This document shows, piece by piece, positions 1,996-18,888 of a stretch of DNA of 64,000 nt. Both the position numbers and the translations under genes were made by a program. The stretch is from positions 186,001-250,000 of the forward strand of contig JALONP010000001.1 in the NCBI GenBank assembly GCA_025454875.1, written 5' to 3'. Numbering within the stretch: position 1 is the first letter of the stretch; each line of letters starts with the position of its first letter. The notes under the pieces were generated by a model, which worked only from the letters and a program-made list of their open reading frames with translations, was not told the origin of the DNA and did no database searches. The DNA is from Bacteroidia bacterium (lineage in GTDB: Bacteria; Bacteroidota; Bacteroidia; UKL13-3).

Positions 1996-2130
1996 CTGTT
2001 TGTTTTTCTGAAATGCAATAAGCAATATATTCATGCATTTAACAAAAAAAGTTAACCCCGCATATCAACTTCGATTGTAGGGTTTGGCTTTATGAGGGGT
2101 TTTACCTTTATTTGGCCTATAATCAACTTT

Positions 2131-3099
2131 ATGAAATCCCAACAAACAGGCAACTTGGTTATTTCTTTGGACTTTGAACTGATGTGGGGCGTTTTTGACA
2201 AAAAGAGTATTTCGAATTATGGCTCCAATATTTTAGGAGTCCACACGTTGGTTCCCAAATTATTAAAGGTTTTTGAACAACATGGTGTTAAAGCTACTTT
2301 TGCCACGGTTGGTTTTTTGTTTGCAAAAAACAAAACAGACTTATTCAATTATTTACCTTCAATAAAGCCTTTATATACCAACAAAGCACTCACGCCTTAT
2401 GGGCAGTACCTTGAAACTGTCAATGAATTTGATGAATACCATTATGCCTTGCCTCTCATTCAACTTATCCAATCATATGGCCATGAAATTGCATCGCATA
2501 CATTTTGCCATTATTACTGTAAGGAGCATGGACAAACAAAAGCCGAGTTTGAAGCCGATTTGAATGCAGCTATTGCTATTGCCAAACAATATGGTATCGA
2601 ACTTAAAAGTATGGTTTTCCCAAGAAACCAAGTAAACGAAGATTACTTAGAAATACTTACAAAACTTGGCATTAGCAGTTATAGAGGCAATGAAAAATCA
2701 TGGCTGTACGCTTCACGAAACGGTGATGAAGAAACAATTTGGAGAAGATTTTCGCGCATTATAGATGCCTATATCAATGTTTCAGGACACAACGCATTTG
2801 CAATCGATACATCTAAAACCCCAATTAATATTCCTTCAAGTCGCTTTTTGCGCCCTTTTAATCCTGCTTTGGGCTTATTTGAAAATTTAAGAATCAATAG
2901 GATTAAATCTTCGATGTTGCATGCTGCTCGCAATCAATTGAACTACCATTTATGGTGGCATCCTCACAATTTTGGCATTTACCAAGAGCAAAACTTACAT
3001 GTTTTGTCGAGCATATTAAGCCATTACAAGCAATTGCAAGCTGATTACGGCTTTGGTAACCAAACAATGGCGCAACTCTCAAAAACGCATAACCAATGA
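2131..3099 (+). CDS. NodB-type polysaccharide deacetylase
   Basis: A polysaccharide deacetylase-like protein of 322 residues. The N-terminal ISLDFELMWG carries the catalytic-base aspartate context of the DFELxWG subgroup, and ASHTFCHYY gives the metal-binding HX3H motif. The family removes N- or O-acetyl groups from sugars with a divalent metal. There is no signal peptide, which suggests a cytoplasmic or membrane-face substrate rather than exported polymer. I chose ATG 2131 (MKSQQTGNLV) over an ATG at 2092 because the fold starts right after it. It overlaps the formyltransferase gene by four bases (ATGA at 3096-3099), so the two products are made together and may act in sequence. Confidence 0.85.
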   Translation: MKSQQTGNLVISLDFELMWGVFDKKSISNYGSNILGVHTLVPKLLKVFEQHGVKATFATVGFLFAKNKTDLFNYLPSIKPLYTNKALTPYGQYLETVNEFDEYHYALPLIQLIQSYGHEIASHTFCHYYCKEHGQTKAEFEADLNAAIAIAKQYGIELKSMVFPRNQVNEDYLEILTKLGISSYRGNEKSWLYASRNGDEETIWRRFSRIIDAYINVSGHNAFAIDTSKTPINIPSSRFLRPFNPALGLFENLRINRIKSSMLHAARNQLNYHLWWHPHNFGIYQEQNLHVLSSILSHYKQLQADYGFGNQTMAQLSKTHNQ

Positions 3100-3869
3100 C
3101 GATTAAAAAGATAGTTTTGCTTGCTGGCAGCAATAGCCATTCAACCACCCTACTGTTTAATGCCATAGATCCAGAATTTGAAATTCATGCTGTCATTATC
3201 GAACAAGCACAACCACGTTTACGTGTGTTAAAAAATCGAGCGAAAAAATTAGGTTGGATCATTGTTGCTCAACAAGTTTTGTTTCAATTATGCGTTTTGC
3301 CTTTACTCAAAGTAACAAGCCAAAAACGCCTTAGAACAATTATTCATACTGCAAAACTACATGATACACCCATTCCAACTGATAAGGTATTGCAAGTTGT
3401 ATCAGCAAACAACATGCAGTGTATTGACCTGTTGAACAAATTGCAACCTGATATTGTGTTGGTAAATGGAACACGAATTCTTTCAAAAAAATTACTTGAA
3501 TCAGTACCTGCAATTTTTATAAACATGCATGCTGGCATTACGCCAATGTATAGAGGCGTGCATGGCGGATATTGGGCATTGACTCAGAATGATTCTGCAA
3601 ATTGTGGTGTAACTATTCATCAAGTTGATGCTGGTGTTGATACAGGAGCAACACTTTTTCAAAGCTCTATCCAAATTACTCCTCAAGATAATTTTTACAC
3701 GTATCCTTATTTGCAATTTGTTGCTGGATTACCCTTTTTGAAAAAAGCCCTAACTGATTGGCCTAACTATAAATTTAAAGCAACTCATCAAAATAATAGA
3801 AGTAGGCAATGGTACCACCCTACTTTACTACAATACCTATATTTTAGGATAATAAAGGGCGTCAAATAA
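3096..3869 (+). CDS. Formyltransferase-family protein (sugar N-formyltransferase-like)
   Basis: A protein of 257 residues of the formyl_transferase superfamily (methionyl-tRNA formyltransferase/ArnA/sugar formyltransferase fold). The catalytic triad of the fold is recognisable: asparagine in LVNGTRILS, histidine in INMHAGITPMYRG, and aspartate in DAGVDTGATLF. These enzymes use N10-formyltetrahydrofolate to formylate a primary amine. In a polysaccharide locus the likely acceptor is an amino sugar. Its start overlaps the deacetylase stop by 4 bases. It ends 14 bases before the convergent GT2 gene. The extreme N-terminus (residues 1-60) is divergent, so the exact substrate is open. Confidence 0.85.
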   Translation: MTIKKIVLLAGSNSHSTTLLFNAIDPEFEIHAVIIEQAQPRLRVLKNRAKKLGWIIVAQQVLFQLCVLPLLKVTSQKRLRTIIHTAKLHDTPIPTDKVLQVVSANNMQCIDLLNKLQPDIVLVNGTRILSKKLLESVPAIFINMHAGITPMYRGVHGGYWALTQNDSANCGVTIHQVDAGVDTGATLFQSSIQITPQDNFYTYPYLQFVAGLPFLKKALTDWPNYKFKATHQNNRSRQWYHPTLLQYLYFRIIKGVK

Positions 3870-3883
3870 CTACCCTATCACTT

Positions 3884-4807
3884 CTATTGTTCGTAACGAA
3901 TAGCGTCAGGAAGCCGAAGGTATTTAGTATCCTTAAGGGTATTAATTAATTCTACTATGCTGAATATTCCCTTTGATCGCCACATCAATCCTAAAAAGCC
4001 TTTCCAAGTAGATCGCTTGTTTTTAAGATCGATTAATAATTGAACGAATGCAAAAATAAATACCTGAGAACGGTATTGCGGAAAGCGCTCTAAATAATAA
4101 TGCCAATGCTTAATTACCAATTCACGAACTGTATTATTTGCTTTCTTCTTTACACTAAAACTGTTTTGGGCATTTACCCTGTACTTTCCAAGTACATCCT
4201 TTAAAATGAATCCTCTGCCTGCACTTAAATACTCCAATGTATAATACAAATCGAGCGTATCGAATTTTGGGTTATAAGTTGTACGTATAGCCTTACGGTA
4301 CATCATTGAACTGTGGGTTGCTACCGTTCCTGAACGTAAAACATATTCAAAAGAAATATGCTGCCCCTCGGGAGTTTGAAAGGCAGGAGTACTTAGTTCA
4401 TTTGCTTCTTTGCCATTATCTGAAAAATAAACCACTTTATGCCAAACTACACTCATATCGGGATTCGTATTCATAAAGGCAACCTGCTTCTCCAATTTAT
4501 TAGGCAAAAATAAATCATCACCATCACAATGTGCCACATATTTACCCTTTGCCAATGAGTGAACATGATTAAAATTCACGAATGGACCAACATTTTGAGG
4601 ATAGTTTACAATTCTTATTTTGTTAGGATATTGGGTTTGGTAAGCCGCCAAAATTTCCCCTGTTCGATCGGTTGAGCAATCGTTACCAATAATAATCTCA
4701 AAATCAAAAGACGTTTGCTGTTGCAAAATACTTTCCAAACAATCTTGAATATAGGCCTCCTGATTATAGGTTACCACGCAAACTGAAACAAGTGGGTTAT
4801 TTACCAT
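3884..4807 (-). CDS. GT2 family glycosyltransferase
   Basis: A GT-A glycosyltransferase of 307 residues. It opens with PLVSVCVVTYNQEAYIQDCL, the GT2 signature. Then come IIGNDCSTDRTGEI and CDGDDLFLPNKLEKQ, whose acidic DGDD motif binds metal and the nucleotide sugar. The family transfers one sugar to a growing lipid-linked oligosaccharide in the cytoplasm. I prefer ATG 4807 (MVNNPLVSV) to one five codons upstream because homologues begin just before the first beta-strand. The start overlaps the ATP-grasp gene's stop by 11 bases, so it is the last gene of the long minus-strand operon and should be coupled to it. Confidence 0.9.
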   Translation of the reverse strand: MVNNPLVSVCVVTYNQEAYIQDCLESILQQQTSFDFEIIIGNDCSTDRTGEILAAYQTQYPNKIRIVNYPQNVGPFVNFNHVHSLAKGKYVAHCDGDDLFLPNKLEKQVAFMNTNPDMSVVWHKVVYFSDNGKEANELSTPAFQTPEGQHISFEYVLRSGTVATHSSMMYRKAIRTTYNPKFDTLDLYYTLEYLSAGRGFILKDVLGKYRVNAQNSFSVKKKANNTVRELVIKHWHYYLERFPQYRSQVFIFAFVQLLIDLKNKRSTWKGFLGLMWRSKGIFSIVELINTLKDTKYLRLPDAIRYEQ

Positions 4808-5843
4808 GTTGCAAACAAGCAATTACTTCTTTATGCTTAATTTCAAATACAATATCCACATAACGTGTATCCCAAGAATGCAACAGCCTGAATCGCTTTT
4901 TGTAATGAGCATAAGGTTTTCCATTCAATTTCATTTTAGGATTTGGCTGATACACCGGACTCACTTCTAAAATAAGAGGTATTGAATTCAAATCATCATG
5001 CTGCCAAGTAATATCAAATGCACCTGTTGTGAGGTTTAACTTTTGGAACGTATCAATAATCATTTGCCTCCATTGTTCTGGAAAAAAGTCAAAATCCACA
5101 TCACTACCATAACTTGTAGATGTTGGCTTCCACTCCTTGTCATTGTTAATACGCCAATAGTGTAATACAATCTCATTATCAACAAGGATAACCCGGAGGT
5201 CTTTCCTCATATCAATTAAAGATTGAACGATAACAACCTTGTTCTCATGTATAAAACTTGGAGCATTGATTAACGCATTAAACTCGTCAGCAGACTTTAT
5301 TTTGTACAACCCATTTGAAGAACAAGAGTGTTCCCCTTTTACCAACAACGGATACTGAAATTGTGTACCATCAATAACTTGGTTTATAGGAAATAGTTGT
5401 GTAAGCGGTTCGCTGATTCCGAGTTTTTTAAACTGTTCGTGCATAAACGCTTTATTCTCCCAAAACTTCGATTCATAACTGTTTGGATGCAGGGTATTTC
5501 CTTGCGCTTCAAGCTGCGCACTAATATGCTCGAGTACATGAACGTAATTGGTAAAACCAAAAACGTTGTAGGTGCTTTCTAAGGTATAAAAAATACGCTT
5601 ATTTGAATACCTACCAATCTTATTTCCAAATTGAATTGTGAAAGATTGATTTTGATTCAAAAGGCCGAACAGTATGCCAAAATCCTTAACAAATGCATCA
5701 CTTCCTAAATACGCCAAACTTGGCTGGTGAATCCACAGCACAATTTGCGCATCCTTCTGATATAACTTGGCAAATGCTACCCAATTTATTCGTCTAATAC
5801 AAACAACTACCCGTGTAAGTCTTTTTAATAACTTAATAATCAT
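4797..5843 (-). CDS. ATP-grasp family ligase in polysaccharide locus
   Basis: A protein of 348 residues whose C-terminal two thirds look like an ATP-grasp ligase. The stretch FQYPLLVKGEHSCSSNGLY (near residue 170-190) resembles the nucleotide-binding strand and flexible loop, VIVQSLIDMRKDLRVILV follows, and LILEVSPVYQPNP (near 305) carries the metal-binding Glu. The first ~130 residues match nothing I recognise. ATP-grasp enzymes activate a carboxylate as an acyl phosphate and join it to an amine or thiol. It overlaps the HAD gene by 11 bases and the GT2 gene by 11 bases. Given the upstream PLP enzyme and phosphatase I infer an amide ligase acting on a uronic acid; that role is not proven by sequence. 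Confidence 0.75.
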   Translation of the reverse strand: MIIKLLKRLTRVVVCIRRINWVAFAKLYQKDAQIVLWIHQPSLAYLGSDAFVKDFGILFGLLNQNQSFTIQFGNKIGRYSNKRIFYTLESTYNVFGFTNYVHVLEHISAQLEAQGNTLHPNSYESKFWENKAFMHEQFKKLGISEPLTQLFPINQVIDGTQFQYPLLVKGEHSCSSNGLYKIKSADEFNALINAPSFIHENKVVIVQSLIDMRKDLRVILVDNEIVLHYWRINNDKEWKPTSTSYGSDVDFDFFPEQWRQMIIDTFQKLNLTTGAFDITWQHDDLNSIPLILEVSPVYQPNPKMKLNGKPYAHYKKRFRLLHSWDTRYVDIVFEIKHKEVIACLQHGK

Positions 5844-6417
5844 GCCTTAACTGCTGAATTTCGTTTAATTGGGGTAGTCCAATGTACTTTATTGGCAACA
5901 ATTTTACAACTTCAATCACCCCATCATATAAACGAATATCTCCATTTTCGTGGTTATATGATAAATCGTCAATAAAAGTAATCGAAATCTGATACGCGTT
6001 GGCAAGTTTCAAAAATCGAATTTTTGACTTTGCATTAGGAACCAAAATAATGCCCCCTTGTATGGTAGGCAACCCGCATGATTTAAGCCAATCAAGAGTT
6101 GTAGACATGAGCTCAGGTGGCCTTGCACTCAGGTAAATAATCAACGTATTTGGCTGTTTGGCTTGCTGTAAAATCCAACTGCGCATTCCCCTAAAAATAG
6201 CTAATGATTGATGGCGTACCTTTTCATTTGGATAAATATAAGGATGCAAAAGTGTAGGCCAAGTATCCGCTATTGTATTGTCAATATCAATAATATAAAG
6301 TTGTGCTTGTGGCTTCAACTTGCTGCAGATAAGCCAAAAACGAATCCATGAAACAAGAAGTGATATGGGGGCAAAACTTCTTAAAATACCGGATTTGACT
6401 TTATTGAAAAACATCAC
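5833..6417 (-). CDS. HAD superfamily phosphatase
   Basis: A small HAD-type hydrolase of 194 residues. Motif I is IIDIDNTIADT (Asp44 and Asp46, DxDxT), motif II is IIYLSARP, a lysine follows in NAKSKIRFLK, and motif IV is TFIDDLSYN. All four catalytic motifs are present, so it should be an active magnesium-dependent phosphatase. The N-terminal 35 residues are hydrophobic and basic and may lie against the membrane. It overlaps the aminotransferase gene by 17 bases and the ATP-grasp gene by 11 bases, which argues for one linked pathway; the obvious substrate is the phosphorylated product of the PLP enzyme next door (inference). Confidence 0.85.
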   Translation of the reverse strand: MMFFNKVKSGILRSFAPISLLVSWIRFWLICSKLKPQAQLYIIDIDNTIADTWPTLLHPYIYPNEKVRHQSLAIFRGMRSWILQQAKQPNTLIIYLSARPPELMSTTLDWLKSCGLPTIQGGIILVPNAKSKIRFLKLANAYQISITFIDDLSYNHENGDIRLYDGVIEVVKLLPIKYIGLPQLNEIQQLRHDY

Positions 6418-7567
6418 GAAAGCTTTGTAAAATATAGTCGTTTTCTGCTTTTGACCGCGATGCCAAGCGAATATAATCTCCTTGCAAACCTATCTTGTCC
6501 TCACAGGTTCTCACGTATATTCCATACTTAATCAATAACAAACTTACAATTTCAGCAGATGAGCGACCTCCAATAATTTCCACCAATACAAAGTTTGCCT
6601 TGCTCGGATACACTCTAATATTGGGTATCGTTTTCAAATCGGCAATAAACTCCATGGTTTCAAGAATATACTTCACACGAACCTTTTCGTAGTTATAAGC
6701 AAAATCAGCTCTGGTGTAAAGTCTAAAAAAATACTCCGCTAAACCGTTCGAATTCCATAAATAGCCTGTTTTAAGGAGTGTACTTACCTTTTCTTTTTGC
6801 ATAATGCCATACCCCGCCCTTACACCTGCAATTCCAAAATCTTTCGACATGCTTTTGAGTACAATCAAGTTTGGAAATTCTTCTACCCAATTGCCAGTGG
6901 AAATTAATCTAAAAGCCTTGTCTTCATAAGCAAAATGAATAAAACTTTCGTCAATGATAATGTTTTTGACAAAATGTAACTCCGTTACAATATGCCTCAA
7001 TTCATCAGTAGTTAAATAGGCCCCATTGGGATTATTCGGATTAATTAAGACAATGGTATCGGGCTGCTCTTCTTTAACTCTTGAAATATAACCTTCAATA
7101 TCAATTGCATAATCATGCTCTTTCAGCAACTGATTATACACTACCTCAACACCCTCTTTTGCGTATTCATAATAGGATGAAAACGTAGGAATATTAATGA
7201 GGATTTTTTTCTCCGTAAAGTTATGTACAATGGCTTGAATAATTTCAATTGCGCCATTACCAATGAAGATATGCTCGGGTTTGAGTTTTAAAAAATCGGC
7301 TAATATCTCAGCGATAACAGCATTCTGAGATGGATACCACTCTAATAAATCGCGAATTTTTCCTGTTTCAACAATTTCGTGGTTAAAATATTCAAGAAAC
7401 AATTCCGTGGCATACGGATTTGATAAAAAACATGCATCTACTTTAATATCAAGCTGAGGTAACTTTTGTTTAAATGTAAATATACTGGGTGAATGCGAAC
7501 CTGCTTCTTGTTTAAGCTTTAAAATTTGTGCTGCAAGAACTTGCTCACTTGGAGTAAATATAGCCAT
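6401..7567 (-). CDS. HisC/CobD-like PLP-dependent aminotransferase or decarboxylase
   Basis: A fold-type I PLP enzyme of 388 residues in the histidinol-phosphate aminotransferase group. INPNNPNGAYL is the PLP/carboxylate-binding stretch, IIIDESFIHF holds the aspartate that pairs with the pyridine nitrogen, and LKSMSKDFGIAGVRAGYG holds the Schiff-base lysine. Members of this group act on small phosphorylated substrates: histidinol phosphate, threonine phosphate (CobD), serine phosphate, or serinol phosphate. No histidine genes are nearby, so a role in polysaccharide decoration is more likely. It starts 11 bases after the membrane protein gene and overlaps the HAD gene by 17 bases. Transamination versus decarboxylation cannot be told from the sequence. 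Confidence 0.85.
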   Translation of the reverse strand: MAIFTPSEQVLAAQILKLKQEAGSHSPSIFTFKQKLPQLDIKVDACFLSNPYATELFLEYFNHEIVETGKIRDLLEWYPSQNAVIAEILADFLKLKPEHIFIGNGAIEIIQAIVHNFTEKKILINIPTFSSYYEYAKEGVEVVYNQLLKEHDYAIDIEGYISRVKEEQPDTIVLINPNNPNGAYLTTDELRHIVTELHFVKNIIIDESFIHFAYEDKAFRLISTGNWVEEFPNLIVLKSMSKDFGIAGVRAGYGIMQKEKVSTLLKTGYLWNSNGLAEYFFRLYTRADFAYNYEKVRVKYILETMEFIADLKTIPNIRVYPSKANFVLVEIIGGRSSAEIVSLLLIKYGIYVRTCEDKIGLQGDYIRLASRSKAENDYILQSFRDVFQ

Positions 7568-7578
7568 GTATTTAGTTT

Positions 7579-8838
7579 TTATTCGACTTCAACTACTGTG
7601 CTTTGAAACACTCTAATTTTAGCCAAGTAACGAGCGAATTTAACAATTATCATCATTAATAAAATACTGTATATAAATCCGATGAAAGCATTAATCCAAC
7701 CTGGCAACAAAAAGACCAACCATGCCAACCAAACAGCATCTAAGGAGCCATTGTTAAGCGGAAATTGTTTCATAAACCAAATGGATAAAAAACAGAGCAA
7801 TAAAATATACAATAGGTAAGGTAACGACCACAGTGGTGTAATGATAAACCACGCTGCTAAACCAGGATTAATATTCCACCTGCCCACAAACTCCTGTTGA
7901 GGGAAAAAAAAGTCAGTTAATACAACCCCTAAATTAAAGGGAGCCTGAATACCTAGTGCTTTTCTATAAGCCAATTGAGGAAGACCGTCTTGCCAAAAAG
8001 GTAGTATTGCGCCTTGTTCGTTGAGTAGGATAATTTGATCTCTGTAATGCAAAATCTCCACAACAATAGAGGTGTATTGTAACCTCCCAATTAAATGGGT
8101 AATTCCTTCCTCTAAAAACTCAAGATATCCTCGAGATTCGATTACTTGCATGAAAATGGTAAAAAAACCATCAGTAACCCCGCTGTTGGAACCCACTGTT
8201 CGGAGCACCAGTTTGATGTAGAGTAAATACGGATATAAAAAAAACATGAGCACACCAAGTAAGGTTATTAGCCCATAGTTAATCTTGCCTTTACGCACCA
8301 TTTGACACCACTCAAAAAACAATACAAAAAGGTAAACTGCTGCCCATCCTCTTAAAATATTTGAAATCAAATATGCAATTAAGTTGTATTTAAACATTGA
8401 CGTGTTTCGGAACTGGCCGTAATACACCAAAAAAATCATATCGACTGGTGTAAATATCCAAAAAAACAGTAATGGAGATTGTGTTTTTTGGGTAGATCCT
8501 GCAACATTTACCCCCTCTACTAAATTGAAAATAAGGTACGTAATTTGAAGCACCAGTAAAATGTATCCGGCAATCTTAGCGGCCCGTTCATTGGTTGTTA
8601 AATCAATAAATTGGCTCACCTTTATTTTGGAAAAGAACTGATAAATAGGTTTTAAGAAAACAAAGTAAGAGAGCACAACAATTCCAGAAGCCAACCACAA
8701 ATCAGTAACACTAAACAAGCGTGTTGTTACCACATCACCAATTAATGTATTGGTGTTGTACATAATGATTGTTGCTATCACATTAGCTGTGATATAAGCA
8801 ATCAACCAAATTCTGTATTCTGGTTTAAACCCAATCAT
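7579..8838 (-). CDS. Multi-spanning membrane protein, candidate polysaccharide polymerase (Wzy)
   Basis: A protein of 419 residues with about ten hydrophobic segments and one long extracytoplasmic stretch in the second half (roughly residues 220-320, before FLLPGWINAFIGF). Size, topology and position directly after the flippase gene in a Wzx/Wzy locus point to the repeat-unit polymerase, which joins undecaprenyl-linked units on the periplasmic side. Wzy proteins are too divergent for motif-based proof, and I see no diagnostic residues beyond the topology. It is separated from the flippase gene by one base and from the PLP enzyme gene by 11 bases, so it is cotranscribed with both. Confidence 0.6.
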   Translation of the reverse strand: MIGFKPEYRIWLIAYITANVIATIIMYNTNTLIGDVVTTRLFSVTDLWLASGIVVLSYFVFLKPIYQFFSKIKVSQFIDLTTNERAAKIAGYILLVLQITYLIFNLVEGVNVAGSTQKTQSPLLFFWIFTPVDMIFLVYYGQFRNTSMFKYNLIAYLISNILRGWAAVYLFVLFFEWCQMVRKGKINYGLITLLGVLMFFLYPYLLYIKLVLRTVGSNSGVTDGFFTIFMQVIESRGYLEFLEEGITHLIGRLQYTSIVVEILHYRDQIILLNEQGAILPFWQDGLPQLAYRKALGIQAPFNLGVVLTDFFFPQQEFVGRWNINPGLAAWFIITPLWSLPYLLYILLLCFLSIWFMKQFPLNNGSLDAVWLAWLVFLLPGWINAFIGFIYSILLMMIIVKFARYLAKIRVFQSTVVEVE

Positions 8839-8839
8839 T

Positions 8840-10342
8840 TCATTTTTCTTCTTTAAACATTCGAATTATTGTTTCTCGAATATATGACGAAAACAAACCT
8901 CCAGTAACAATTAATGCAAGGGCTACACCTGATAAATATAGCAAGATGCTTATTCGATTGGTTTCAGAGATTGGGCCTAATGAACAAACATAGGCAACCG
9001 CTATCATCGAAACTACTGAAAGCACAATGTCCTTACCGTACCATTGGGCGTTTAACTGTTTATTAAATGAATGATGAATGATTGGAACCCATATTAAAAA
9101 ATACAAACAGTTCATGATAAGCCACACATAACCAGCTCCAATCCCTCCAAAATTGGTAACAAAATAGATGATAGCAGGAATAAGCAAACACACAAACCCA
9201 ATATTACCCCAAATATGGAACCGTAAGTTTCCTTTGGCATATTGTAAATAATAAGGAAAGGCAGAAAGCGCCAATAAAAAATTGCCTATACTATACAGTA
9301 CCAAATATGGAGAAGCTTGTTGTACCAAAACTGCGTTGCCAGACCATGCATAAATAACAAATCGTGAAAAAAACGTTAATACAAGTGCGATGCTACCTAC
9401 TCCTGTTACAATTAATTGTGTTGCATTTCGATATACTTCAATTAACGCTTGTTGCTTACCCTCGGCTTCGAGAGTAGACATGCGTGGGATGATTGCAGAA
9501 CTGATTGGGCCACTCACCAATGTAATGCCACCAGCCAATTGCACTGCAATGGTAAAGTATCCAAACTCTGACAAGGTTAGTAATTTCGATAAAAGGAGTT
9601 TGTCCATTTGGGTTACCAACACCCAAACAGCACTCGTGAAGGCCAAGGATAGAGAAAACTTAAGCGCTGTTTTTAAGTATACGTTCGCATCTACTTCATT
9701 GAGTGGCTGTTCGTCTCCTTTAGGCAATAATCGTTTTACCTTAATAGATAAGCAAACCCACTCAATACAAACAACCAATAATTGATAGGTAAAAAAAACG
9801 ATTATCGAATTCGAAAAGTACAATGGTATAAAAACCACAACAAACCTTAAGGTGTTAATCAAAGCATTAAAGGAACTTAACCATTGCAAAGCTTCATATC
9901 CATTTACCAAAGCTTTATAAAACCCCGAAAACCATCTAATCACGACAATAAAAGCAATTAAAATCAATGAAAGTTGAATAACCTCACTGCTTAAAAACGC
10001 TGCTTTAAACCAATAATTGGAAATGGTAAATGATGCTGTAACAAACAATACCAAAAACAACAGACCTAATGCTAAAAAGTACTTACGAAGTTTTGCAAAT
10101 AACAAAAGCAAAAGATTGGCCGATGTGGCTCCTCCTCTGTAACGCGAAATTTCGCGTGCCAATGTAGGCGACATTCCTAGGTCTAAAATAGCTAACCATG
10201 CTTGCATCATCGAAAAAAAACCCACAATGCCGTACGCTTCAGCACCAACAACTTCGAGCAGTTTTGGTAATGTTACTATGCTAATACCAATAATGTAAAG
10301 TTGGCTTGCATAGTTAAAGGTTACATTTCGTTTAAGCGACAT
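8840..10342 (-). CDS. Oligosaccharide flippase (Wzx-like, MOP superfamily)
   Basis: A polytopic protein of 500 residues with 12-14 predicted membrane segments. The start MSLKRNVTFNYASQLYII and the following LEVVGAEAYGIVGFFSMM and LDLGMSPTLAREISRYRGG are typical of polysaccharide flippases of the MOP/PST family. They move undecaprenyl-diphosphate-linked repeat units from the cytoplasmic to the periplasmic leaflet. The length is normal for the family. It lies between the NeuD-like acyltransferase (3 bases upstream) and the putative polymerase (1 base downstream), the usual layout of a Wzx/Wzy system. Confidence 0.9.
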   Translation of the reverse strand: MSLKRNVTFNYASQLYIIGISIVTLPKLLEVVGAEAYGIVGFFSMMQAWLAILDLGMSPTLAREISRYRGGATSANLLLLLFAKLRKYFLALGLLFLVLFVTASFTISNYWFKAAFLSSEVIQLSLILIAFIVVIRWFSGFYKALVNGYEALQWLSSFNALINTLRFVVVFIPLYFSNSIIVFFTYQLLVVCIEWVCLSIKVKRLLPKGDEQPLNEVDANVYLKTALKFSLSLAFTSAVWVLVTQMDKLLLSKLLTLSEFGYFTIAVQLAGGITLVSGPISSAIIPRMSTLEAEGKQQALIEVYRNATQLIVTGVGSIALVLTFFSRFVIYAWSGNAVLVQQASPYLVLYSIGNFLLALSAFPYYLQYAKGNLRFHIWGNIGFVCLLIPAIIYFVTNFGGIGAGYVWLIMNCLYFLIWVPIIHHSFNKQLNAQWYGKDIVLSVVSMIAVAYVCSLGPISETNRISILLYLSGVALALIVTGGLFSSYIRETIIRMFKEEK

Positions 10343-10345
10343 TTA

Positions 10346-10969
10346 TTATCTTAGTTTTCGCAGGGAACTGCCAACATAGGTGCCAGGTTCATCAATATTT
10401 TGGTAAACAACTGTTCCAGCGCCAATAACAACATCATCGCAAATCTGAATAGTAGGCTTTACGATGCAGCCAGCCCCTAATTGCACGTATTTGCCAATTC
10501 TTACTCCACCTGCCAAAACACATTGTGGTCCAATTTCTGAAAATTGACCTATACACACATTGTGATGGATATAACTTCCGGCATTAATCAATACTCCATC
10601 TTCTATAATCACTTCTGGAAAAATATGTGCGTGGTGCATAATGTTCAGCCCTTTACCCAATTGCACGTTTAAGGTACTTATCAATGACAAAGTTGATATA
10701 ACCGAAAATGGGGTTCCACCATTTTGCAATCCAATCTCAAACAACAATTGTCGCACTCGAGGAGATCCAACTGCTATAATAAACTCAGGTGTTTTTTTAA
10801 ATTGTTCTTGCAGCTCTTGAACATGGTTAATTATCTTGTAACCAAATTTACTTGGATGCGCATTTGGGGTGTTATCAAAAAATAGAATCGAATCAGAGGC
10901 AATCGTTTTAGCCGCTAATAACACATCCAGAACCTCAGATGCATGACCTCCTGCCCCTAATATAACCAT
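10346..10969 (-). CDS. NeuD-like sugar acyltransferase (left-handed beta-helix)
   Basis: A protein of 207 residues. The N-terminal MVILGAGGHASEVLDVL is the Rossmann-like nucleotide-sugar-binding domain of the NeuD/PglD family. The second half is a left-handed parallel beta-helix of hexapeptide repeats (for example VIIEDGVLINAGSYI and IGPQCVLAGGVRIG) that binds acetyl-CoA. PglD-type enzymes N-acetylate the 4-amino group of UDP-amino sugars; NeuD O-acetylates sialic acid. Adjacent to a DegT aminotransferase (1 base apart), N-acylation of the new amino group is the likelier role. The catalytic histidine is probably the one in SYIHHNVCIG. Confidence 0.88.
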   Translation of the reverse strand: MVILGAGGHASEVLDVLLAAKTIASDSILFFDNTPNAHPSKFGYKIINHVQELQEQFKKTPEFIIAVGSPRVRQLLFEIGLQNGGTPFSVISTLSLISTLNVQLGKGLNIMHHAHIFPEVIIEDGVLINAGSYIHHNVCIGQFSEIGPQCVLAGGVRIGKYVQLGAGCIVKPTIQICDDVVIGAGTVVYQNIDEPGTYVGSSLRKLR

Positions 10970-10970
10970 A

Positions 10971-12053
10971 TCAATTGTTTTGAGCTCTTAATAACAACCG
11001 TGCAATCATCCTTATATCTTCAGGCGACATATGATAATAAAGCGGCAAACAAAGTACCCTTTTAGAAATGTTTTCACTAACTGGTGTCGACTGTTTATGA
11101 ACATAAGACAACTGGTTCAATGATGGGTAAAAATACCTGCGTGGGTAAACATAGTTGCCATTTAATGCAGCAACCGCTTTTAATAATGCTACCTCTGATT
11201 CAAACACAATTGGATAGTAAGCATAGTTATACTTCGAATTGGTTGTAATAGCCGGCTTTTGAACACGTAATCCTGCCAAGGCTTCATCATATAGTGAGGA
11301 TGCCTCTTCTCTGCTTTTTAAAATATCGTTAACAATAGCCAAATTACACAAACCCATGGCAGCATGAAATTCTGAATTTTTACCGTTGATTCCTACTCCT
11401 TCAAATGCTTCGGGTCCGTTGTGCCCAAAATTGCGCATATGCGACATGGTCTTGAGCAACTCTGGTGATTGTGTAAATACAGCACCACCTTCAATGGTAT
11501 GAAATAACTTAGTTGCGTGAAAACTGGTGGTACTAATATCTCCAAACGCAAAAATCGATTGTTGCTTGTATTGTGTACCAAAACAATGTGCTGCATCATA
11601 AATCACTTTTAAATTGTGCTTACGAGCAATTGCTTCAATTGCATCTACATCACATGGGTTGCCATACACATGGGTTGCCAATATGGCAACAGTATTGGGG
11701 GTAATTGCTTGCTCAATTAATGCAGGATTGATGTTAAGTGTACGCTCATCAATATCGGCAAACACTGGAGTAAAACCTTCCCAAGCGATACTCGAGGTGG
11801 TTGCTACATAAGAAAAAGGCGTTGTAATCACTTCTCCTTTTGTAACACCAATTGCTTTTAAGGCAATTTGCAATGCAATGGTTCCATTGTTTAGGTAAAG
11901 TAAATGGTTTAATCCTAAATACTCTTTTAGTTTTAGTTCAAGTTCATTTACCAAAGGACCATTATTGGTAAGCCAATTGCGCTCCCAAATACCCTTTAAA
12001 TAATGAGCATACTCTTCAAATGAAGGTAAGTTTGGCTTGGTTACGTTAATCAT
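10971..12053 (-). CDS. DegT/DnrJ/EryC1/StrS nucleotide-sugar aminotransferase
   Basis: A PLP enzyme of 360 residues. NNGTIALQIALKAIG binds the PLP phosphate, VIYDAAHCFG supplies the pyridine-contacting Asp, and SFHATKLFHTIEGGAV holds the Schiff-base lysine. Family members aminate a keto-sugar nucleotide using glutamate. It is full length for the family. The gene overlaps the upstream epimerase by 4 bases and is followed one base later by the acyltransferase, so amination then N-acylation of one sugar is the natural reading. Position C3 or C4 is not decided by sequence; the oxidoreductase upstream would fit a 3-keto sugar. Confidence 0.92.
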   Translation of the reverse strand: MINVTKPNLPSFEEYAHYLKGIWERNWLTNNGPLVNELELKLKEYLGLNHLLYLNNGTIALQIALKAIGVTKGEVITTPFSYVATTSSIAWEGFTPVFADIDERTLNINPALIEQAITPNTVAILATHVYGNPCDVDAIEAIARKHNLKVIYDAAHCFGTQYKQQSIFAFGDISTTSFHATKLFHTIEGGAVFTQSPELLKTMSHMRNFGHNGPEAFEGVGINGKNSEFHAAMGLCNLAIVNDILKSREEASSLYDEALAGLRVQKPAITTNSKYNYAYYPIVFESEVALLKAVAALNGNYVYPRRYFYPSLNQLSYVHKQSTPVSENISKRVLCLPLYYHMSPEDIRMIARLLLRAQNN

Positions 12054-13048
12054 ACAGTTGCATTGATAAATGATTGATTGTTTTTAAACCATGCATAGGT
12101 TAACGTGAGTCCTTCGGCAAAACGCACTGTAGGCATATAATCCAAAAGCTCTTTGGCCTTACTAATATCTGCTAAACTATCTCTGATATCTCCTGCCCTT
12201 GCATCTCGGTGTATTGCCTTTATTTGTTTTTGTTCGATTGAACATAAAATATCAAACATTTGTTTAACCGATGTACGGTCGCCTACTGCTACATTGTATA
12301 CCTGATTAATGGCGTTTGGATTATCCGTCAGCATTGCCTTTAGATTAGCTTGAACGGCATTGTCAACATAAGTAAAATCGCGTGTTTGCAAACCATCCCC
12401 ATTGATATATGGCGATTGGTTAGTGAGCAATGCTTGAATAAACAGTGGAATTACTGCTGCGTAGGCTCCATTTGGATCTTGTTTAGGGCCAAAAACATTG
12501 AAGTAACGCAACCCAATTGTGCGGATACCAAACGACTGAGCAAACACAGTTGCATACAACTCATTTACATATTTTGTAACTGCGTAAGGTGATAGTGGAT
12601 TTCCAATAACCGATTCTATTTTTGGCAATTGTTTGCTATCTCCATATGTTGAAGAAGATGCTGCATAAACGAATTGTTTCACCTTTTCATCACGCGCTGC
12701 AACCAACATATTTAAAAAACCACTAATGTTTACTTCGTTTGTGGTTATTGGATCATGTAACGAACGTGGTACCGAACCCAGGGCTGCCTGATGCGAAACA
12801 TAATCGATTCTGTGACAAGCCTTTTTACATGTATCAATGTCTCGAATATCACCATCTATAAATTCGAAGGAAGGATGGTTGCTAAATTGTTCTATGTTTT
12901 TATAAAAACCTGTACTCAAATTATCAAGCACCCTTACTTTAGCAGCACCTTTGTTAAGTAAAGCTTCAACCAAATTTGAGCCAATAAATCCAGCTCCCCC
13001 AGTAACTAAAAAGGCAGATTCTTGAATATGTTGCGTGTTTTTATCCAT
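12050..13048 (-). CDS. NAD-dependent UDP-hexose 4-epimerase (WbpP/TviC-like SDR)
   Basis: An extended SDR of 332 residues. FLVTGGAGFIGSNLVEAL is the NAD-binding glycine motif, YAASSSTYGDSK precedes the catalytic SPYAVTKYVNELYA (YX3K), and GLRYFNVFGPKQDPNGAYAAV is typical of the WbpP/TviC/Gne group. These enzymes interconvert UDP-GlcNAc and UDP-GalNAc or the corresponding uronic acids. Together with the 6-dehydrogenase at the head of the operon it could make a galacto-configured uronic acid, as TviB and TviC do for Vi antigen. It overlaps the aminotransferase gene by 4 bases. Confidence 0.9.
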   Translation of the reverse strand: MDKNTQHIQESAFLVTGGAGFIGSNLVEALLNKGAAKVRVLDNLSTGFYKNIEQFSNHPSFEFIDGDIRDIDTCKKACHRIDYVSHQAALGSVPRSLHDPITTNEVNISGFLNMLVAARDEKVKQFVYAASSSTYGDSKQLPKIESVIGNPLSPYAVTKYVNELYATVFAQSFGIRTIGLRYFNVFGPKQDPNGAYAAVIPLFIQALLTNQSPYINGDGLQTRDFTYVDNAVQANLKAMLTDNPNAINQVYNVAVGDRTSVKQMFDILCSIEQKQIKAIHRDARAGDIRDSLADISKAKELLDYMPTVRFAEGLTLTYAWFKNNQSFINATV

Positions 13049-13058
13049 GTAAATGAAA

Positions 13059-14069
13059 TTACTTCAACTGGTAAATACGTTCAATTATATCCACAACCTT
13101 TAATCCCTCCAATGCATTTGTGCTTATAGTTGCCCTTCCTTGCAATACATCCACTACATTTTGAATCACATAATGGTGGTTTTGTGCCGACCCTTTGTAT
13201 GCACCATAATCATTGCCAGGGTTTGTTGGCGCCAATTGGGGCATTTGATAGTCTTTAACATGGCAATATTCAACCTCATTCATGTATTGCCCGCCAATTT
13301 TGATACTTCCGTTTTCAGCAATAATGGTCATGCTGCTTTCTAAGTTTTGATTCCAAACCGAAGTAGAATAATTGAGCGAGCCCATACCACCATTCACAAA
13401 ATCAAAACTTACAAAACCGCTGTCTTCAAAATCAGTAAGTGTTGCATGGTTAAAGTCATTGAATTTGGCTTTAATATTTTCAATATCACCAAACAACCAA
13501 TACATAATATCAATAAAATGAGAGAATTGGGTAAACAGAGTTCCGCCATCTAAGTCTTTTTTGCCATGCCAGCTATCTGGCTTGTAGTAACGATCATCAC
13601 GGTTCCAATAACAATTAAGTTGAACCATAAACACCTTGCCCAACTTACCTGAATCAATTAATTCTTTAATCCAAACTGAGGGTGGTGAGTACCTGTTCTG
13701 CATTACCGCAAAAACTTGCTTATGCATATGTAATGCTTTGTAAATAACCTTCTCAGCATCGGCACGTGTTAACGCCATTGGTTTCTCGATAACCACGTGC
13801 ATGTTTGCACCCAATACATCAAGTGCATGTTGAGCATGAAATCCATTAGGAGAAGCAATATTTACAACATCGCATTCAATACCTGATTGAATAAAGTCGG
13901 CTAACGAAGCAAAAAAAGGCACATTGTATGCATCAATTCCTAAGGATGCTTTAGGTTTTACATCAATCAATGCAACCAATTCCGATTGCTCGTTTCGGCT
14001 AATCATTTCGGCATGTCGTTTTCCAATATGCCCACAACCAATTACAGCAAATTTTATTTTCTGTTTCAT
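13059..14069 (-). CDS. Gfo/Idh/MocA family oxidoreductase (WbpB/WlbA-like)
   Basis: A protein of 336 residues. FAVIGCGHIGKRHAEMI binds NAD(P), and VVIEKPMALTRADAEK carries the EKP motif with the catalytic lysine. The middle part (QNRYSPPSVWIKEL and GGTLFTQFSHFIDIMYW) matches sugar dehydrogenases of polysaccharide loci. WbpB/WlbA oxidise C3 of UDP-N-acetylglucosaminuronic acid before transamination. With the dehydrogenase, aminotransferase and acyltransferase nearby it would complete a diamino-uronic-acid route (inference). It sits 10 bases upstream of the epimerase gene and 3 bases downstream of the Wzz-like gene. Confidence 0.88.
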   Translation of the reverse strand: MKQKIKFAVIGCGHIGKRHAEMISRNEQSELVALIDVKPKASLGIDAYNVPFFASLADFIQSGIECDVVNIASPNGFHAQHALDVLGANMHVVIEKPMALTRADAEKVIYKALHMHKQVFAVMQNRYSPPSVWIKELIDSGKLGKVFMVQLNCYWNRDDRYYKPDSWHGKKDLDGGTLFTQFSHFIDIMYWLFGDIENIKAKFNDFNHATLTDFEDSGFVSFDFVNGGMGSLNYSTSVWNQNLESSMTIIAENGSIKIGGQYMNEVEYCHVKDYQMPQLAPTNPGNDYGAYKGSAQNHHYVIQNVVDVLQGRATISTNALEGLKVVDIIERIYQLK

Positions 14070-17616: not shown

Positions 17617-18888
17617 TTACAATCTTTTGTCAACCAAATGTTTAGGCAAAACTCCTTTTACATCAAATACCACCGATACGGGCTTGCGTAGCGATTCGAT
17701 ATCAACTGAACTGAATTCTGCGTGTGATACTGCCATAATAATGGCGTCAAACTGCTGATGTGCTGACTCGGAGAGTGAATTAATAATATGCAAACCATAC
17801 TCTTCGTGCACACTTTCTTTCTCAGCCCAAGGATCGAGTATGGTTAAATCAAGGTGGTAATTGGTTAAAGCAGCAATTATATCGACAACTCTGGTATTGC
17901 GCACATCGGGGCAATTTTCTTTAAATGTAATCCCCATCACAAGTACTTTTGCATCACGCACAGGTATTTGCTTTTTTACGATAAGCTTTATGGTTTCATC
18001 CGCAACATAAGAACCAATGCTATCATTGAGCCTTCTTCCCGCCAATATAATCTCTGGATGGTAACCCACTTCTTGAGCCTTTTGAGCCAAATAATAAGGG
18101 TCTACACCAATACAATGCCCACCTACTAAACCTGGCTTAAATTTTAAAAAGTTCCACTTAGTACCTGCGGCCTCTAATACTTCATTTGTATCAATGTTAA
18201 GTAAATTGAAAATCTTGGCCAATTCATTAACAAAGGCAATATTGATATCACGTTGTGAGTTTTCAATAACCTTAGCAGCTTCTGCCACTTTAATACTGGT
18301 TGCTTTAAATGTTCCTGCTGTAATAATAGAACGGTAAACAGCGTCTACCTTATCAGCAACCTCTGGTGTTGAGCCAGAGGTTACTTTCAAAATTTTGGCA
18401 ACCGTGTGTTCTTTGTCACCTGGATTGATACGCTCAGGCGAATATCCGCAATAAAAATCTGTATTAAACTTTAAACCCGAAACACGTTCAAGAACAGGAA
18501 CACATTCTTCCTCGGTTGCTCCCGGATACACCGTTGATTCGTAAACAACAATATCCCCTTTTTTCAAAACTTTACCCACCGTTTCACTTGCCTTCACAAG
18601 CGGTGTCAAATCAGGCTTATTGTACTTATCAACTGGTGTTGGAACTGTTATCACAAAAAAGGTACAATCCTTTATTGATTCCAGTTCATTTGCGTATTCT
18701 AAATGTGCGGCCGACTTAAGTCCTTGTTCATCAACTTCGAGTGTTCGGTCAAAAAAATTACGCAGTTCCGCAATTCGTTGTTTATTAATATCAAATCCAA
18801 CAGTATGGTATTGTTTCCCGAATTCAACTGCTAAAGGCAATCCCACATAACCAAGTCCAATAACAGCAATTTTTGGCTCTTTCTTCAT
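17617..18888 (-). CDS. UDP-N-acetylglucosamine 6-dehydrogenase-like (TviB/WbpA family)
   Basis: A nucleotide-sugar dehydrogenase of 423 residues. IAVIGLGYVGLPLAVEFG binds NAD, VYESTVYPGATEEECVPVLE is family-typical, and GLVGGHCIGVDPYYLAQKAQ carries the catalytic cysteine of the two-step oxidation of C6 to a carboxylate. Sequence style (HTVGFDINKQRIAELR, GYSPERINPGDKEHTV) is closer to TviB/WbpA than to UDP-glucose dehydrogenases, so UDP-GlcNAc or UDP-GalNAc is the likely substrate. It is the first gene of the minus-strand operon; 90 bases separate it from the SLBB gene. The uronic acid it makes is probably the substrate of the modification genes downstream. Confidence 0.92.
   Translation of the reverse strand: MKKEPKIAVIGLGYVGLPLAVEFGKQYHTVGFDINKQRIAELRNFFDRTLEVDEQGLKSAAHLEYANELESIKDCTFFVITVPTPVDKYNKPDLTPLVKASETVGKVLKKGDIVVYESTVYPGATEEECVPVLERVSGLKFNTDFYCGYSPERINPGDKEHTVAKILKVTSGSTPEVADKVDAVYRSIITAGTFKATSIKVAEAAKVIENSQRDINIAFVNELAKIFNLLNIDTNEVLEAAGTKWNFLKFKPGLVGGHCIGVDPYYLAQKAQEVGYHPEIILAGRRLNDSIGSYVADETIKLIVKKQIPVRDAKVLVMGITFKENCPDVRNTRVVDIIAALTNYHLDLTILDPWAEKESVHEEYGLHIINSLSESAHQQFDAIIMAVSHAEFSSVDIESLRKPVSVVFDVKGVLPKHLVDKRL

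Follow-up and report, generated by a model that had tools for sequence, protein, structure and literature searches.

The 64,000-nt stretch of contig JALONP010000001.1 from a Bacteroidia bacterium (hereafter the window) carries on its minus strand three overlapping genes, which encode a pyridoxal phosphate (PLP)-dependent enzyme (6401-7567, 388 aa), a haloacid dehalogenase (HAD) phosphatase (5833-6417, 194 aa) and a stand-alone ATP-grasp carboxylate-amine ligase of the LysX/ArgX/RimK-like kind (4797-5843, 348 aa), and which we examined as a candidate module for amidating the uronic acid of a polysaccharide. The PLP enzyme and HAD genes overlap by 17 bases and the HAD and ligase genes by 11 bases, in agreement with the range of 11-17 bases given in a preliminary description of this DNA. 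Since the longest open reading frame across 100 shuffles of this DNA was 158 aa, the three frames are not chance frames. The trio continues a minus-strand run of genes that starts at 18888 with a nucleotide-sugar dehydrogenase (17617-18888). This enzyme, the predicted source of the uronic acid, passed the cut-off of the model NF011729 (602.6 versus 592 bits) for TviB-type uridine diphosphate (UDP)-N-acetylglucosamine (GlcNAc) 6-dehydrogenases, which bears out the earlier proposal that the trio shares an operon with a UDP-N-acetylhexosamine 6-dehydrogenase. Judged by sequence, the trio belongs to a Wzx/Wzy-type polysaccharide operon with a TviB-type UDP-GlcNAc 6-dehydrogenase.

The PLP enzyme matched Aminotran_1_2 (E 2.8e-35) and holds its PLP lysine within KSMSKDFGIAG. 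A phmmer search aligned residues 17-386 with the 'threonine phosphate decarboxylase-like enzyme' of PDB entry 6oux (E 1.3e-121), which we take to be SMUL_1544 of Sulfurospirillum multivorans and which was reportedly assayed as a serine-phosphate decarboxylase in a FEBS Letters paper of 2019. Over nearly its full length, the window enzyme is also 49% identical to a Sulfurospirillum plasmid protein annotated in RefSeq as 'norcobamide biosynthesis serine-O-phosphate decarboxylase', whose gene sits between cbiB and cobU. The N-terminal segment AGSHSPS...DAC(F/Y)LSNPYA is conserved across the family and included in the 6oux match, so that the relationship to the L-serine-O-phosphate decarboxylases of the SMUL_1544 lineage is full-length. 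Production of ethanolamine phosphate has been proposed for SMUL_1544 (PMC4585668), and the title of Keller 2016 points to the same role. The scores against the HisC model TIGR01141 (165.8 bits, cut-off 276.55) and the CobD model TIGR01140 (165.2 bits, cut-off 290.55) were both below cut-off. In a maximum-likelihood tree, the window enzyme grouped with the Sulfurospirillum enzyme, copies from Pedobacter and homologues from two other Bacteroidota genomes, one of the host's own family (G037) and one more distant (G255). True HisC proteins formed a separate clade (support 99/98), and an annotated Peptoclostridium CobD fell outside the PLP enzyme clade on a long branch; because several outgroup branches are very long, only the separation of HisC was taken from the tree. 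These sequence criteria set the PLP enzyme apart from both HisC and CobD, and it is predicted to be an L-serine-O-phosphate decarboxylase yielding ethanolamine phosphate. The earlier label 'HisC/CobD-like' thus holds only as a weak match to both families, and the clustering with true HisC proteins that had been named as evidence to the contrary did not occur. A search of a viral collection and one of E. coli genomes with the DNA of the PLP enzyme gave no match. Some distant relatives are fused to or adjoin a MobA-like nucleoside triphosphate (NTP) transferase (L069:4206-6038, from Fusobacterium vincentii; L046:4493-6366; L047:4325-6225), which suggests another pathway with nucleotide activation of an amino-alcohol phosphate.

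The catalytic motifs of the HAD protein, which the preliminary description had called complete while also noting a PLP-lysine motif and ATP-grasp motifs, were all found (D44/D46, S97, K132 and D150/D151) and are invariant in 14 relatives. Its AlphaFold model (predicted local distance difference test score, pLDDT, 83) gave VIA Z scores of 9-12 to lipin/Nir2, PNKP and class B acid-phosphatase (AphA) domains, among them 11.8 to 9jtz and 11.3 to T4 PNKP. The four motifs and the modelled fold together place the protein in the HAD superfamily. Because many HAD structures match at similar Z, and absence from the VIA list does not exclude a family, we claim no closer subfamily. Matches of the APP1/acid-phosphatase type (APP1/P4) were weak and below cut-off, the HAD-IB models (PF12710/TIGR01490) did not match the window protein (hhalign probability 0.5%), and phmmer against PDB returned no relative at E up to 1. 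The predicted function is dephosphorylation of an amino-alcohol phosphate, either amide-linked or free. Neither the HAD protein nor the ligase had a match in plasmids.

The ligase exceeded the gathering scores of PF08443 (RimK; 30.7 over 21, E 2.9e-7) and PF07478 (D-Ala-D-Ala ligase; 24.3 over 24). Its AlphaFold model (pLDDT 85) resembled ArgX (3vpb; VIA Z 22.5, root-mean-square deviation 3.2 over 267 residues) and RimK (Z 20.9), and the Pfam scores and the fold together assign it to the RimK/LysX/Ddl group of ATP-grasp enzymes. ArgX, LysX and RimK form amide bonds via acyl phosphates, and the window ligase is a predicted uronate amidoligase. A phmmer search of PDB with the ligase returned only VanA/PurK-type matches with E above 0.01, and its profile gave two weak matches. 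PF14305, the TupA-like family of the Campylobacter ligase domain Cj1438C, matched neither the window ligase nor any protein of the host genome, and hhalign gave a probability of 2% for the window ligase against the TupA-like ligase of G037. In addition, residues 2-18 form a basic amphipathic helix, and in 13 of 14 ligases no 18-mer elsewhere in the protein is more amphipathic than that of an N-terminal helix. This helix and export by Wzx/Wzy would fit action on a lipid-linked repeat at the inner membrane face.

The remaining genes of the run, all on the minus strand, fit the polysaccharide assignment. Downstream of the trio, a family 2 glycosyltransferase gene (GT2; 3884-4822, PF00535 E 4e-33) overlaps the ligase gene by up to 26 bases. 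Upstream lie genes for a Wzy-type oligosaccharide repeat unit polymerase (7579-8838; NF033860, 277 bits, cut-off 75), a Wzx-type flippase (8840-10342; PF01943 E 1.8e-18), a NeuD/PglD-type sugar N-acetyltransferase (10346-10969; TIGR03570, 162.5 bits, cut-off 160.8) and a DegT/WbpE-type sugar aminotransferase (10971-12053; PF01041 E 3.7e-94, WbpE 3nyu E 2e-48, perosamine synthetase 3bn1 E 4.6e-50). Further upstream are genes for a short-chain dehydrogenase/reductase (SDR) like the WbpP/TviC-type 4-epimerases of UDP-N-acetylglucosaminuronic acid (UDP-GlcNAcA) (12050-13048; WbpP 1sb8 E 1e-108, under the TviC cut-off) and a Gfo/Idh/MocA oxidoreductase, possibly a UDP-GlcNAcA 3-dehydrogenase (13059-14069; E about 1e-54 to PDB 3q2k/3q2i, which we take to be WlbA-type enzymes). 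Wza- and Wzz-like genes, labelled by eye from their translations, also lie within the run. The score of the dehydrogenase makes it a TviB equivalog, which predicts that UDP-GlcNAcA is formed by the operon, and the WbpP-, WlbA- and WbpE-like neighbours suggest that N-acetylgalactosaminuronic acid or a 2,3-diacetamido uronic acid may follow. A separate dehydrogenase, read from its scores as the UDP-glucose type, is encoded elsewhere in the host genome, so glucuronic acid could still be the sugar. On the opposite strand, polysaccharide-deacetylase-like and formyltransferase-like genes with a 4-base overlap (2092-3869, plus strand) adjoin the operon end. An Rfam search of the window found no RNA.

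A scan of genome contigs, which returned only Pedobacter, found the PLP-HAD-ligase genes in identical order and with the same 17-base PLP/HAD overlap in four named Pedobacter species; trio-bearing Pedobacter include P. steynii DSM 19110 and BAL39. Among 399 Pedobacter-family genomes, 13 have a close copy of the PLP enzyme, and in all 13 the HAD and then the ligase gene directly follow; a separate search with the ligase recovered the same 13 genomes and no others. The ordered trio therefore recurs in at least 13 genomes of this family, named Pedobacter species being among them. Two other, distant PLP relatives stand without the trio and adjoin an NTP-transferase gene. Identities to the window proteins were 65-69% for the PLP enzyme, 34-39% for the HAD protein and 50-55% for the ligase. 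Within the host's order (64 genomes), the PLP enzyme occurs in just one genome besides the host, and the HAD protein in no further one. A DegT gene related at 60-64% is present in 13/13 of the Pedobacter-family loci, and those whose downstream end was read have an SDR that looks by eye like a UDP-uronate 4-epimerase. Two genes after the trio, the Pedobacter loci (L033:231-2066 and equivalents) also carry an asparagine-synthase-like amidotransferase, which may add a second type of amidation, a primary amide, to the same polysaccharide. A literature search found no paper on an amidated Pedobacter polysaccharide.

The two Bacteroidota genomes that grouped with the host in the tree have other partners for this PLP enzyme. 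In G037, the gene for the PLP enzyme (56% identical) precedes those for a HAD-IB phosphatase (above the TIGR01490 cut-off) and a TupA-like ATP-grasp protein (PF14305 E 3e-40), and in G255 the enzyme is paired with a HAD-IB protein (29% identical to that of G037). In Campylobacter jejuni, the TupA-like ATP-grasp Cj1438C joins either ethanolamine phosphate or (S)-serinol phosphate to glucuronate as an amide and does not take UDP-glucuronic acid (UDP-GlcA) as a substrate, and the HAD phosphatase Cj1435 strips the phosphate after amidation (PMC11800397, PMC11800379); HS:19 has been described likewise (PMC13276843). The same PLP enzyme thus stands with two different ligase/phosphatase pairs, one Campylobacter-like and one of the window type, and these gene arrangements are most simply explained if both pairs do the same work. 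The three G037 genes (L048:12983-15757, G037:C43) thereby form the whole Campylobacter-like set in stand-alone form. They lie in a Bacteroidota polysaccharide cluster whose TviB-, WbpP- and AsnB-like genes are located some 25-30 kb further upstream (L065). In G255 (L064:8093-11210, G255:C33), the two genes adjoin one for a 430-aa protein without a Pfam match, which by eye is of the CapK/phenylacetate-CoA-ligase type, and no ATP-grasp gene was seen there.

Taken together, these data suggest, with a probability of roughly 0.6, that the trio forms an amide between the uronic acid of a Wzx/Wzy-type polysaccharide and an amino alcohol, for which ethanolamine is the likeliest candidate. In the proposed pathway, the PLP enzyme would decarboxylate O-phospho-L-serine to ethanolamine phosphate, and the ligase would activate the C6 carboxylate of the uronic acid as an acyl phosphate and link it to the amino group of ethanolamine phosphate. 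Removal of the phosphate by the HAD enzyme would come last, as with Cj1435 in C. jejuni. A 2-acetamido or 2,3-diacetamido hexuronic acid, formed by the TviB-, WbpP- and WlbA/WbpE-like enzymes, is the probable sugar, and the ligase, probably held at the membrane by its amphipathic helix, would act on the lipid-linked repeat. Several observations weigh against this proposal. The metal motif of the ligase is E-V-S (E293, S295), with S replacing the usual N in a conserved stretch (residues 277-301, FDITW...LEVSP), versus E-x-N in most ATP-grasp enzymes; an N is likewise missing from the TupA-like ligase of G037 (E-I-T). Our searches found no characterised sugar-acting relative for the ligase or the phosphatase. 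The uronic-acid genes vary, with a TviB-like gene found near the trio in 7/13 of the Pedobacter-family loci. Moreover, the 13 genomes are relatives and not 13 independent events, so the trio is to be read as a stable unit rather than 13 inventions. The amine may also turn out to be 1-amino-2-propanol or serinol.

The latter point leads to the alternatives. The same module might use another amine, with the PLP enzyme converting O-phosphothreonine to (R)-1-amino-2-propanol phosphate or transaminating dihydroxyacetone phosphate to serinol phosphate. Indeed, the window enzyme also matches CobD, a threonine-phosphate decarboxylase, at 165 bits, and C. jejuni has a second PLP enzyme, Cj1437, that makes serinol phosphate, its ligase taking both amines. 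However, the closest relative of characterised function, 49% identical along almost the entire protein, is the serine-phosphate decarboxylase, and the Peptoclostridium CobD lies outside the clade, though on a long branch, so that we regard another amine as rather unlikely. It is also conceivable, though quite improbable, that the genes serve separate ends, the ligase using an amino acid or other amine and the ethanolamine or ethanolamine phosphate going elsewhere, such as into a phosphodiester. The ligase is structurally closest to amino-acid-adding enzymes (ArgX/LysX, RimK), and polysaccharides that carry amino acids have been described, as in Vibrio alginolyticus (PMC4663550). Against this, the PLP enzyme and ligase genes occur together in 13/13 genomes, the frames overlap, a TupA-like amidoligase takes the place of the ligase beside the same PLP enzyme in G037, and neither a cytidylyltransferase nor a phosphoethanolamine transferase lies within the trio.

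Two further explanations would place the trio outside polysaccharide amidation. If the PLP enzyme were a histidinol-phosphate aminotransferase and the HAD protein a histidinol phosphatase, lying in a polysaccharide operon by chance, this would agree with the PLP enzyme being the host's best TIGR01141 match, no other being found there at E 1e-40. However, it scores 166 bits versus a cut-off of 277, HisC forms another clade, and two trio-bearing genomes (G458 and G561) encode a true HisC in addition to the PLP enzyme. Moreover, histidinol dehydrogenase is absent from the host genome (99.97% complete), and therefore a histidinol-phosphate pathway is very unlikely. The 49% identity to the norcobamide enzyme would in turn allow the PLP enzyme to make the ethanolamine-phosphate linker of norcobamide, as in Sulfurospirillum, but its gene is placed in a polysaccharide operon and CbiB (PF03186), which assembly of the cobamide linker requires, is absent from the host, from G037 and G255 and from seven trio-bearing Pedobacter-family genomes. 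Because the host has neither histidinol dehydrogenase nor CbiB, the histidine and cobamide roles fall away, and both readings are close to refuted for this host.

The amidation of a uronic acid is therefore the reading we keep, in a modified form. The preliminary description had proposed that the locus repeats the Campylobacter amidation with a stand-alone ligase. The outline, the stand-alone ligase and the UDP-uronate pathway stand, and the module of the relative G037 supports the outline, but the ligase has no detectable TupA match and the phosphatase no detectable HAD-IB match, so that the locus differs from the Campylobacter set by more than the separation of the ligase domain. The best reading is that the module carries out the decoration chemistry described for the Campylobacter capsule with a ligase and a phosphatase from unrelated, non-orthologous families. 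More tentatively, and at somewhat less than even odds, the LysX/RimK-like protein may represent a second, independently evolved family of membrane-associated, stand-alone uronate amidoligases, with 2-acetamido hexuronic acids as substrates. Together with its own HAD type, it would replace the TupA-like/HAD-IB pair while the serine-phosphate decarboxylase is conserved. Amino-alcohol amides alter the charge of bacterial surface polysaccharides and the way these are recognised, and the enzymes of amidation have been worked out only recently, in Campylobacter. If our proposal is true, glycoengineers would gain an extra tool in this second ligase of an unrelated family, and amidated sugars would become predictable from the genomes of environmental Bacteroidota. 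The prediction lends itself readily to testing, since ligase and phosphatase have been exchanged while a single PLP enzyme is conserved.

By its genes alone, the locus is a module of the Campylobacter type, with PLP enzyme, HAD and ATP-grasp genes jointly in a polysaccharide locus that has a UDP-uronate source. It shares these features and the predicted chemistry with C. jejuni HS:2/HS:19 (Cj1435, Cj1436/Cj1437 and the C-terminal domain of Cj1438). In contrast to C. jejuni, the window ligase is stand-alone and LysX/RimK-like, set apart from the TupA-like type by PF14305 and by comparison with the G037 ligase, and the window phosphatase lacks the HAD-IB match of its counterparts in G037 and G255 (Cj1435 is described as HAD). 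The sugar source is of the UDP-GlcNAcA type rather than UDP-GlcA, and export is by Wzx/Wzy instead of an ATP-binding cassette transporter. The PLP enzyme is akin to SMUL_1544 over nearly its whole length (49%), N-terminal segment included, whereas it stands in a polysaccharide context in a host without CbiB. The G037 module is closer in its PLP enzyme (56% identical), gene order and kind of operon, but its ligase is TupA-like, as in Campylobacter, and its phosphatase is HAD-IB. With the LysX/ArgX/RimK ligases, the window ligase shares the fold (VIA Z 20-22) and, by prediction, carboxylate-amine ligation, at only 13-17% identity, and those enzymes act on amino acids or proteins, whereas the window ligase is predicted to act on a uronic acid.

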